Shown piece after piece: positions 1 to 63,030 of a DNA stretch of 63,030 nt; the first letter of the stretch is position 1; every line of letters starts with the position of its first letter. A model generated the notes under the pieces. It searched no databases. It had not been told where the DNA came from and saw only the letters and a program-made list of their open reading frames with translations. This DNA is from Clostridiaceae bacterium. GTDB lineage: Bacteria; Bacillota; Clostridia; SK-Y3. The DNA is taken from positions 1 to 63,030 of the forward strand of contig JAAYHJ010000006.1 in NCBI GenBank assembly GCA_012735465.1, given 5' to 3'. The translations under genes and the position numbers were made by a program.

Positions 1-14
1 ACAATAGTATTCAC
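1..14 (-). CDS. Probable transposase, first codons only (left copy)
   Basis: A GTG codon at 14-12 on the minus strand follows AAGGAGG with about 7 bases spacing and opens a frame that leaves the window after four codons. It mirrors 63015-63030 exactly. The product is inferred from its place just inside a repeated element end; no domain can be seen. Confidence 0.4.
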
Positions 15-81
15 AAGAGATCCTCCTTTTCAAAGGTTTTTGATGGTGATTCTATTGTATCAAAAAGTGAGGATCTCTTGT
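13..81 (-). promoter_or_regulatory. Hairpin burying the transposase ribosome site (left copy)
   Basis: The arms at 69-81 and 13-25 are perfect 13-base inverted repeats. The proximal arm contains most of the AGGAGG site and reaches the GTG start. A second 8-base pair (59-66 with 38-45) nests inside. This is the mirror image of 62948-63016; see that entry for the inferred role. Confidence 0.6.
54..62 (-). promoter_or_regulatory. Extended -10 promoter for transposase (left copy)
   Basis: On the minus strand the sequence reads TG-A-TACAAT, an extended -10 element. It lies in the loop of the hairpin, so transcripts starting from it would lack the distal arm. No good -35 is visible, which extended -10 promoters can tolerate. 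Confidence 0.4.
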
Positions 82-119
82 TTTTTTATCCTTAAAATGT
101 CCTACAATTATTTTACACT

Positions 120-521
120 ATGATACTGAATTCTGTTGACAGGGGAACGGAAAAACATATTATTGAGACATTAGAGATTGAAGACACGGATTTGGCAGAG
201 GAAATAAAGAAAAGAATGTTCACATTTGATGATATTGTTACTCTGGACAACCGTTCTATTCAAAGATTCCTTAGAGAGGTGGATAATAATCAATTGGCAT
301 TGGCACTTAAAGGTGCCAATGAAGAAGTGCAAAAGGTTATCTTTAGCAATATGTCTAAACGTTTGGCTGAAATGATCCGGGAGGATATGGAATTTATGGG
401 GCCTGTTCGCTTAAGGGATGTGGGAGAAGCACAGCAAAAAATTGTTAATGTTATCAGAAGGCTGGAGGATGCCGGTGAGATTGTAATTTCACGGGGCGGA
501 GGGGATGAAATAATTGTCTAG
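120..521 (+). pseudogene. fliG: fliG, 3' remnant cut by insertion sequence
   Basis: The reading frame matches the C-terminal part of FliG, the rotor protein of the flagellar switch that takes torque from the MotA stator. About 132 residues remain of a usual length near 335-340, beginning at the conserved L-N-S-V-D-R-G stretch of the middle domain and including the whole C-terminal torque domain ending in G-G-G-D-E-I-I-V. The ATG at 120 is made by the element tip and has no ribosome site, so the fragment is probably not translated well. Stop is at 519-521, overlapping fliH by 8 bases. The missing N-terminal part binds FliF, so this fragment alone should not rebuild a switch. The disruption looks recent because the remaining codons carry no further damage. 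Confidence 0.85.
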
Positions 522-3047: not shown

Positions 3048-3096
3048 GGATGTGGCAAAAGCCATAATTTGTATATACATGGAATGGAGGATACGG

Positions 3097-3936
3097 ATGC
3101 CAGGTTCAAGAGTGGGTGGCGAAAGGTATGGTGCAGTTGGTACCGTTGGGCGTACAAAAGACATAAAAAGTAAAGCAAATGAATCTTCGAGCCAGTCGAT
3201 CCAATATGCTATTATTGCTAAGTTTATTTTAATTATGATAATATTACTGCTCATAAGCATACCCATATTGATGATAAGGTTCAATGTATTAGGGGTTGGT
3301 GAACAGGCAAGGCCTTTTATTGAGGATTTGCCTTACCTGAACAAAATATTGCCGGAAAAGCCCGACCCACAGGACCCGAAATACATGAACAAGGCAGAAT
3401 TAACTGAAAAATACTTGGAATACAAACAAAAATATGAGCAGCTTATTGCTGAAAGGGATACTTTGCAGGAACAACTTAAGGGTCTTAACAATATAAAGGA
3501 AAATTACGAATTGTTTGTACAAGACCAGCGAAAGCTGCAGGAGGATCAATTAAAACTGCAGGAGGAAAAAGCTTCCCTTGAGAAGGAACGGGAGAATTTT
3601 TTCAAGGAAATAAAAGAAGCAAAGGAAAGTGATTTTAAGGCATACTTTGAAAAGATATACCCGGAAAAAGCAGCTGAGCTATATAAAGAAATACTGGAAG
3701 AGCAAAGGATTAATGAACAAATTAAAGAATCCGTTTCCTATTATGAAAATATGGATGCAAAGAAAGCTGCAAGGATTTTTGAGGAAATGAGCAAAAACAA
3801 TATGGATATGGTTGTAAATGTATTAAAAAACATGGACAGGGAACAAGCCTCAGAAATACTAGCTAATATGCAGGTAGAAACAGCTGCACAGATTAGCAGT
3901 ATACTGTTAGGTGAATATCAGACTAACACGCCATAA
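3097..3936 (+). CDS. MotE/YlxF-like flagellar membrane protein
   Basis: The 279-residue product has a cytoplasmic N-terminus, one membrane segment at about residues 38-62, a long coiled coil (about 100-185) and a C-terminal domain of about 70 residues resembling the MgtE intracellular N domain (Y-Y-E-N-M-D-A-K-K-A-A-R-I-F-E-E-M). This is the architecture of MotE/YlxF proteins, found between fliJ and fliK in many bacteria. In some species MotE chaperones the MotC stator-ring protein; in Gram-positives its job is less clear. ATG at 3097 is preferred because of GGAATGGAGG six bases before it; a GTG at 3052 would add 15 residues without a good site. Confidence 0.8.
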   Translation: MPGSRVGGERYGAVGTVGRTKDIKSKANESSSQSIQYAIIAKFILIMIILLLISIPILMIRFNVLGVGEQARPFIEDLPYLNKILPEKPDPQDPKYMNKAELTEKYLEYKQKYEQLIAERDTLQEQLKGLNNIKENYELFVQDQRKLQEDQLKLQEEKASLEKERENFFKEIKEAKESDFKAYFEKIYPEKAAELYKEILEEQRINEQIKESVSYYENMDAKKAARIFEEMSKNNMDMVVNVLKNMDREQASEILANMQVETAAQISSILLGEYQTNTP

Positions 3937-3966
3937 TATAATGATATCCTGAAAGGAGGTGATGTT

Positions 3967-5343
3967 GTGAATGTTAAAGATGTTATGGCTACCCTGTTTG
4001 GTGCCTCCAATCTTGCGGATGAATATGTTTTCGATTCAAGCAAAGGTTCAAACTGGCAGTTTAAAGATGTGCTAGATAATTCAATAATGAAAGCAGGAAT
4101 GAAAGCAGGCTTGGTTGAGCAGCACAAAAATGTTAAAACGGGTAACCCTGTCCCCAAGAGCCGGACAGATATGGACTTTCTGAATAAAACCAATTTTCAT
4201 CTTCCCAGGAATAAGGCAAATGATGGACCAGCAAAAAAAGACTCGAATGCGGTAGACAATACGTATAAAAATGAACGTAATCAGTCCGATTCCCCGATAA
4301 GTGATACCCAAAAGGCAAATAATTGCAATAAGGGTACGGAGGAAAACCATTCCAAAGAAAAGGAGAAACCAGAAGATGTTTTTGAAAAAGTAAAACAATT
4401 GATGGACAGGCTTTCGCAGGAAAACCTATCACAAGATGAAAGAATACTTTTGATGAGTGAATTAAGCTTGGCTTTACAGCAGCTCATCGGTCTGATAAAT
4501 CAACATGGCTTGCAGTACAATTTTAGCGATATATTAAGCCATCAGTTTTTTGAAGAAGGGGTAGAAGGAAGCACTGCAGATACAATTGTTGATATACGAG
4601 ACAGAATAAATGATATGATAAAAAGCCTCAATAATTTAATCAATGAAAAATCTGAAGAACTTAAAGCAGAGGGTGATTCAATAAAAGATTCTGTTTTTGG
4701 TATGGATGGACTTGAGGTAACTGAGCAGGAACCAGGTGCCGGGTTGCAAGGTGGTTCAAAAAATGGAGATTTGGGAATGGCTACATTGGCGGAAAAAACA
4801 AAGGTGATAGACCTTCGTAATGCAGTAAACACATCGATGCAATCCCCGGTATTTACAGCCGGAAACGATATGTTTACGTCAGAAGCGGTTAAGGGGCAGG
4901 AAGTATTTAACAGGGAACAGGTCTTTAAACAGGTGCTTGAGCATGCTCGTTTGACTCTTGTTACCGAAGAAAAGTCAGAAATGTTACTTCAACTAAAGCC
5001 CGATTATCTTGGGAAGCTATCTTTGAAGATAGTGACCGAAAGAGGTATTCTTATAGCAAAGTTTACCGCAGAAAGTCAACAGGTAAAAGAAATAATAGAA
5101 GCAAATTTGGATCAGTTAAAAGATGCCCTGGAAGCTCAGGGGTTAAATGTAAAAGGGTTTAGTGTATCTGTTGGAGAACACGATACTCAAGATGTGAATT
5201 ATGGCAGTAACAGGCGTCTATCAAAAAAGCCGCTAGGTGAAGAGGATTCGGAGAGCACAAAAGGTATTTCAAGCTATGATATCACAAGTACAAGTATAAA
5301 CCCTTATCATGTTTCGAACAGCAGTATTGATTTTACTGCATAG
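3967..5343 (+). CDS. fliK: Flagellar hook-length control protein FliK
   Basis: FliK is secreted during hook growth and triggers the FlhB substrate switch when the hook reaches its set length. The 458-residue protein has a polar, poorly conserved N-terminal half, rich in asparagine, lysine and aspartate, and a conserved C-terminal hook-length domain at about residues 320-425 (L-Q-L-K-P-D-Y-L-G-K-L-S-L-K-I). The GTG start at 3967 follows AAAGGAGGTGAT, a near-perfect anti-16S match. It lies between the MotE-like gene and flgD, as in related operons. Confidence 0.9.
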   Translation: MNVKDVMATLFGASNLADEYVFDSSKGSNWQFKDVLDNSIMKAGMKAGLVEQHKNVKTGNPVPKSRTDMDFLNKTNFHLPRNKANDGPAKKDSNAVDNTYKNERNQSDSPISDTQKANNCNKGTEENHSKEKEKPEDVFEKVKQLMDRLSQENLSQDERILLMSELSLALQQLIGLINQHGLQYNFSDILSHQFFEEGVEGSTADTIVDIRDRINDMIKSLNNLINEKSEELKAEGDSIKDSVFGMDGLEVTEQEPGAGLQGGSKNGDLGMATLAEKTKVIDLRNAVNTSMQSPVFTAGNDMFTSEAVKGQEVFNREQVFKQVLEHARLTLVTEEKSEMLLQLKPDYLGKLSLKIVTERGILIAKFTAESQQVKEIIEANLDQLKDALEAQGLNVKGFSVSVGEHDTQDVNYGSNRRLSKKPLGEEDSESTKGISSYDITSTSINPYHVSNSSIDFTA

Positions 5344-62878: not shown

Positions 62879-62947
62879 GCAATAAATTTTAAGTAAATTA
62901 ATCTTTCATAGTGTAAAATAATTGTAGGACATTTTAAGGATAAAAAA

Positions 62948-63016
62948 ACAAGAGATCCTCACTTTTTGATACAATAGAATCACCATCAAAAACCTTTGAA
63001 AAGGAGGATCTCTTGT
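62948..63016 (+). promoter_or_regulatory. Hairpin burying the transposase ribosome site (right copy)
   Basis: ACAAGAGATCCTC (62948-62960) and GAGGATCTCTTGT (63004-63016) pair perfectly, with TTTTTGAT (62963-62970) and ATCAAAAA (62984-62991) nested inside. The inner arm overlaps AGGAGG and the first two bases of the GTG start. A transcript entering from outside would fold and hide the ribosome site; one starting inside the loop would not. Such silencing of read-through is known for IS10 and IS50; its use here is inferred. Confidence 0.65.
62967..62975 (+). promoter_or_regulatory. Extended -10 promoter for transposase (right copy)
   Basis: TG-A-TACAAT, an extended -10 element, lies in the hairpin loop; a start near 62982 would exclude the upstream arm. 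No strong -35 is present. Confidence 0.45.
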
Positions 63017-63030
63017 GAATACTATTGTAA
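63015..63030 (+). CDS. Probable transposase, first codons only (right copy)
   Basis: GTG at 63015 with AAGGAGG at 63001-63007 opens a frame (M/V-N-T-I-V) that runs out of the window after five codons. It is named transposase only because it begins just inside a repeated element end. Confidence 0.45.

Follow-up and report, generated by a model that had tools for sequence, protein, structure and literature searches.

A predicted RNA control region resembling that of IS10 at the left end of an ISLre2-family insertion sequence from a Clostridiaceae bacterium

An insertion sequence of the ISLre2 family probably carries, at its left end, a control region like RNA-IN/RNA-OUT of IS10, with an internal promoter, a ribosome site that is occluded in read-through RNA, and a trans-acting antisense RNA. 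We studied it in the last 83 bases of the window, by which we mean the whole stretch of DNA that was analysed (63,030 bases, the complete contig C74 of a 95-contig assembly). The end of the contig falls 16 nt into the transposase gene. The element is an ISLre2 and not an IS10 element: its control region is IS10-like and its transposase is unrelated.

According to the mechanism we propose, the element's own promoter, with an extended -10 between the arms of a hairpin, would give mRNA without the 5' arm, and this mRNA could be translated. RNA coming from an upstream gene would contain both arms, fold over the Shine-Dalgarno sequence (SD) and yield little transposase. Further, a promoter on the opposite strand, within the first transposase codons, would produce an antisense RNA of approximately 75 nt, consisting of the same hairpin followed by a U-run. 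This RNA may pair with the 5' end of the mRNA over approximately 35-38 nt, the ribosome site among them, and could act in trans, so that the level of transposase would fall as copies accumulate. The transcripts, their ends and their effects are predicted. The features are collected in Table 1.

Table 1. Observed and predicted features of the element in the window
Feature	Position	Strand	Basis
Second copy of the left end, inside and antisense to fliG, target-site duplication ATTCAGTAT	1..122	-	other half of the site on contig C93
9-bp target-site duplication TTAATCTTT	62898..62906	.	second copy adjoins the right terminal inverted repeat (IRR) on contig C42 (L125)
Left terminal inverted repeat (IRL), CATAGTGTAAAATAATTGTAGGAC	62907..62930	+	boundary common to 26 different flanks; complementary to the IRR of the full L057 copy
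A-run on the plus strand, i.e. U-run right after the predicted antisense RNA hairpin (terminator-like tail)	62942..62947	-	sequence; A counts before arm 1
Predicted antisense hairpin RNA of ~75 nt (RNA-OUT-like), 5' end ~63016, ending in the U-run	62942..63016	-	fold -25.2 kcal/mol, z -4.0
Hairpin 5' arm (13 bp, bulged A 62961, 5 bp)	62948..62966	+	complementarity, folding
Extended -10 TGATACAAT, predicted transposase promoter (RNA-IN-like)	62967..62975	+	predicted start ~62982; motif conserved in relatives
Predicted native transposase mRNA 5' end, without the 5' arm	62982..63030	+	inferred from the -10; fold only -4.2 kcal/mol
Hairpin 3' arm including Shine-Dalgarno AGGAGG 63002-63007	62999..63016	+	complementarity, folding
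Transposase gene start (GTG), truncated by the contig end	63015..63030	+	124 bp identical to the L057 element; PF06782, NF033529
-10 TACAAT (5 of 6) of the predicted antisense promoter, within codons 4-5	63024..63029	-	position bins; codon-choice test

The hairpin and its conservation in relatives

We observed perfect complementarity over 13 bp between positions 62948-62960 (ACAAGAGATCCTC) and 63004-63016 (GAGGATCTCTTGT). After the bulged A, five more base pairs are formed by CTTTT at 62962-62966 and AAAAG at 62999-63003. Since the stem is extended by these 5 bp past the bulge, the AGGAGG is wholly paired. The GT of the GTG start codon (63015-63017) is also within the stem. A nested stem of 8 bp (TTTTTGAT at 62963-62970 with ATCAAAAA at 62985-62992) competes with the 5-bp continuation. 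An earlier note on this DNA had described the perfect stem, the nested stem and the extended -10 between the arms, and all three were found. It had also placed both the AGGAGG and the start codon within the stem; the first is fully paired by way of the 5-bp continuation, and the second is included only in part.

We folded both forms of the transcript. RNA with both arms folded at -26.0 kcal/mol (z = -5.9; none of 200 shuffles reached this value), compared with -4.2 kcal/mol for RNA from approximately 62982 onward (z = +0.7). Apart from this stem, the 63-kb window has perfect 13-bp inverted repeats with arms no more than 60 nt apart only in the second copy of the insertion sequence and in two short-loop hairpins. 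A generic sigma-70 scan called no promoter at TGATACAAT, and the sense -35 was not recognisable. There was no Rfam match in the control region at gathering score; sub-threshold matches in this region, e.g. to plant microRNA precursors, were dismissed as hairpin artefacts.

For the analysis of conservation we used 60 distinct ISLre2 left ends, located by the terminal repeat and the start codon. The stem sequences varied among the elements (ACAAGAGATCCTC, AGAATAGCTCC, AGAAGATGACATCC, AGACCTCACC and others). RNAalifold on MAFFT alignments was informative only within subfamilies, and in its place we compared cognate with non-cognate duplexes. The upstream half formed a duplex with its own ribosome site at a mean of -20.8 kcal/mol and with the ribosome sites of other elements at -11.2 kcal/mol (n = 60); none of 10,000 permutations of the cognate pairing fell below -13.3 kcal/mol. 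The corresponding values for 41 non-redundant elements were -20.0 and -11.2 kcal/mol, with the lowest permutation at -13.0 kcal/mol. An SD duplex of -15 kcal/mol or stronger was present in 54 of 60 elements and in 0 of 28 host genes of the window. ISKra4, taken as a comparison family, was present in only 4 genomes, which was too few for use.

The SD was paired in 57 of the 60 relatives. Its mean unpaired probability was 0.14 in the read-through RNA, 0.41 when the upstream part was shuffled and 0.49 in the internal transcript, where the latter was predictable. An extended -10 was located between the arms in 35 of 60 relatives (2.3 expected). Both parts of the IS10-type arrangement, the promoter between the arms and the ribosome site in the 3' arm, were thus found by sequence and folding. 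Read-through occlusion, which the earlier note had proposed, is well supported by these comparisons as a conserved design whose stem sequences change across the family.

The antisense strand and the two groups of relatives

Under selection on the sense strand only, G.U pairs would be expected to exceed A.C mismatches in the stems. We observed 13 A.C and 1 G.U (strand-symmetric scoring, non-redundant set), so this test comprises 14 informative positions. A sense A.C mismatch is a G.U wobble pair on the antisense strand. Because A.C prevailed over G.U in the sense stems, we examined the minus strand.

The same asymmetry bears on the idea that the inverted repeat acts as DNA, e.g. as an operator or a second binding site for the transposase. 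We regard this as very improbable. The repeat is nearly strictly Watson-Crick, which would agree with such a role, but a difference between strands in the mismatches is unexpected for DNA. Further, the arm sequences vary among elements while the IRL is kept, the spacing of the arms varies from 20 to 66 nt, and the 3' arm tracks the SD.

Relatives of one group, which we call clade A, have an antisense -10 (TATAAT or TACAAT) within codons 3-6, where sense ATT ATA reads TATAAT on the antisense strand. Promoter positions are consensus calls. For the antisense -10, a single 5-nt bin (+5 to +9) held 21 counts in 26 elements, and every other bin held at most 4; the sense -10 of clade A fell into bins -55 to -41. 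A perfect antisense TATAAT was present in 14 of 26 elements, compared with 1.7 when codons were exchanged synonymously according to the usage of each gene (0 of 500 as high). Where the protein has Ile-Ile, it was written ATT ATA in 14 of 14 clade-A genes and in 2 of 8 others (Fisher, p = 4e-4), the remaining 6 of the 8 elements outside clade A having ATA ATT or ATT ATT. Under own codon usage the product for ATT ATA was 6e-13. The sequences strongly support a clade-A antisense -10 that is maintained through codon choice, well above what chance would give. The positions of both -10 elements and the codon-level constraint, as well as the inverted repeat and its conservation with changing sequence, are properties of the DNA itself. 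The antisense -35 was weak and was not enriched over synonymous recoding.

The predicted antisense RNA has a median length of 75 nt and overlaps the 5' end of the mRNA by a median of 38 nt (30-45); the overlap predicted in the window is approximately 35 nt. This layout was conserved in 26 non-redundant elements. The antisense strand folded better partly from loop composition, and the stem mismatches gave a mean of 0.8 kcal/mol (16 elements changed, p = 0.001). Judging by codon choice and layout, an antisense hairpin RNA is probably made from the same stretch. The earlier note, whose occlusion and internal promoter find support here, had missed it.

We also considered that the hairpin and the U-run are a minus-strand terminator, stopping antisense transcription that leaves the element, with SD occlusion as a by-product. 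Such a device would explain the U-run after the hairpin on the minus strand and the stem wobble on the antisense strand. The run of A before arm 1 points the same way, as A counts there were 5.7 of 8 in clade A compared with 3.4 in the background, and A-richness was present in both clade A and the other relatives (group B). However, a terminator would require neither an SD placed within the 3' arm, as nearly all relatives have it, nor a -10 at the first codons that reads into the hairpin. The loop of the antisense hairpin (20-66 nt) is also long for an intrinsic terminator. We find this explanation improbable.

We built a tree of 35 transposases, in which the elements that have both promoters clustered in one group (fork 98/98) and accounted for 18 of the 20 rows there. 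The remaining two, labelled B, were L083 and L224. The start codon of L083 had been misassigned in the tree labelling, and the corrected copy has the extended -10. L224 has the ATT ATA codons, and its close relative L137 has TATAAA between the arms.

Relatives of group B kept the hairpin, but in them neither strand had a recognisable promoter close to the start; many of them have inner hairpins and a three-way-junction-like fold. Therefore antisense RNA is not the sole reason for the hairpin. This would agree with fold-back inhibition only, in which the ribosome site of read-through RNA is masked by the hairpin and no antisense RNA is functional. The SD within the stem in nearly all relatives and free in the internal transcript, and a neighbouring gene directed towards the transposase at 13 of the 26 insertion sites of this genome, would also agree with such inhibition. 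Nevertheless we consider it unlikely, as it leaves unexplained the antisense -10 kept by codons in clade A, the narrow overlap of 30-45 nt and the excess of A.C over G.U in the stems. An IS10-like region with a functional antisense RNA is the reading we prefer for the element of the window.

For the family as a whole it is conceivable, and we suggest it only tentatively, that there are two RNA devices. Clade A would have convergently rebuilt the whole of IS10 RNA-IN/RNA-OUT. Group B would use a branched 5' structure, with an outer stem over the SD and one or two inner hairpins, which would need to be opened by another factor before transposase is made.

Separately, we observed that six left ends outside clade A (L144, L147, L167, L173, L175 and L177) have one or two inner hairpins within the SD-occluding stem and no visible promoter. 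L191, L193, L195 and L197 have a further strong hairpin, located between their terminal repeat and the 5' arm; in L195 it is terminator-like.

The element and its insertion sites

Positions 62907-63030 of the window form the left end of an insertion sequence of the ISLre2 family (UPF0236, Mutator-like); the contig stops within the element. The identical left end of 124 bases terminates many other contigs of the genome. Nearly all contigs break approximately 124 bases into the element, as expected of a collapsed repeat. The distinct flanks of the element that we gathered in the genome numbered 26 at the left end and 29 at the right, and 22 left/right flank pairs had a duplication of 8-10 bp in common (mostly 9 bp). 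The element therefore has the terminal inverted repeats and 9-bp target duplications by which ISLre2 is recognised.

The transposase body was absent from the window's own assembly, in which we searched for it, and for this reason it was taken from a public contig (L057) and a closed genome (G277). Contig L057 contains a complete element at approximately 3087-4644, whose left-end 124 bp are identical to those of the window. Its transposase gene (3195-4577, 460 aa) matched UPF0236/PF06782 (E = 1e-76) and scored 324.7 bits with the ISLre2 model NF033529, above the family cut-off of 200. Genome G277 has four places with the same hairpin and transposase. Membership in the IS10/IS4 family was rejected, the transposase matching only UPF0236/ISLre2 and Mutator-like relatives. 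ISLre2 is within the p-MULT 3 group of Mutator-like transposases (PMC3942029). An ISLre2 match was found in 90 of 398 sampled genomes of the phylum; the plasmid DNA searched had no match to the left end, and the viral contigs searched had no relative.

When ISLre2 inserts, its IRR comes to lie some 16 bp from a sigma-A promoter's -35 (PMC3942029). We observed the best -35 at +16 or +17 from the IRR in 21 of 29 right ends, in agreement with this targeting. Since the right end faces the target promoter, the transposase reads towards the promoter and RNA of an upstream gene can enter from the left. The neighbouring gene ran towards the transposase at half of the left ends of this genome, as given above. 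The copy at the end of the window lies 28 bp behind a gene for a 221-aa membrane protein, on the same strand. At its other side, on C42 (L125), the second TTAATCTTT is located 17 bp before TTGACA-17-TAAAAT.

The second copy in the window interrupts a gene which we take to be fliG. The 5' half of fliG adjoins the right end of the element on contig C93 (L123). The two flanks have ATTCAGTAT in common and read ...GGIQSIVEILN / ILNSVDRGTEK... On the antisense strand of fliG, a promoter-like TTGATT-18-TATAAT is located 17 bp from this copy. The earlier note had suggested that the hairpin would allow the element to sit safely in a highly transcribed operon such as fla/che. This was not confirmed: because the copy is antisense to fliG, fla/che read-through would be antisense to the element and is not a threat of the kind the note had in mind, and the window-end copy follows the membrane-protein gene and not fla/che.

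Several other arrangements were observed. The end of the IRR (L057 ~4630-4644) has an outward TTGACA, and the start of the IRL (window 62907-62920) has TAAAAT; joined by approximately 5 bp in a circle, the two would form a -35/-10 pair, and such RNA would have both hairpin arms. A relative of the left end, 77% identical, is located at G000:C16:31026-31120. In L009 (1150-1273, G000:C76) a left end that is 95% identical over approximately 130 nt continues directly into other DNA upstream of a greA-like gene. Its stem is intact, its sense -10 is altered to TGATAAAAAGT, and its left flank has CCATGGTAA in common with a right-end flank on C24. Deletion, recombination or a mis-join are possible origins of this arrangement. 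In L148 (772-1121) a tmRNA gene directly adjoins an ISLre2 insertion.

Comparison with known systems

The ISLre2 family, its duplications and its targeting are already known, and so are antisense control and protection against read-through from external promoters in IS10. If the layout described here works as proposed, the textbook two-level control of IS10 arose independently in an unrelated transposase superfamily. It would also help to explain more than 20 near-identical copies beside active genes in one genome. ISLre2 is common, and its self-placement with the right end facing a promoter can expose the transposase to read-through from an upstream gene.

In IS50/Tn5, too, the ribosome site of the transposase gene is considered to be masked in read-through RNA, as proposed here for the ISLre2 element. 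The transposases are unrelated, and we know of no antisense RNA of ISLre2-like layout in IS50.

The element agrees with ISLre2 and p-MULT 3 as described previously in the transposase family, the 9-bp duplications and the distance of 16-17 bp between the IRR and the -35 (PMC3942029). That paper does not mention hairpin, stem-loop, Shine-Dalgarno or ribosome. Among openly available papers, we found none on ISLre2 or UPF0236 with RNA control of such a layout.

IS50, IS30, IS200 and ISPpu9 are known to be controlled by antisense RNA, Hfq or a leader (PMC8450116). In ISPpu9 of Pseudomonas putida a structure in the 5' leader blocks the ribosome site of the transposase, whose translation the antisense RNA Asr9 promotes (PMC8450116). 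The ISLre2 element is similar in the leader structure over the ribosome site and in the antisense RNA predicted from the start region; it differs in that Asr9 aids translation and the structure of ISPpu9 sits in the native 5' leader.

Compared with IS10/Tn10, the element has a transposase of ISLre2/UPF0236 and not of the IS4 family, no Rfam match at gathering score and weak -35s. As in IS10/Tn10, the transposase promoter is located inside the hairpin, the ribosome site is in its 3' arm, and a short antisense hairpin RNA, here predicted, starts at the first codons. RNA-OUT of IS10 has a length of 69 nt, of which the first 35 are the complement of RNA-IN (PMC5006887); the corresponding values predicted here are approximately 75 nt and 35-38 nt.
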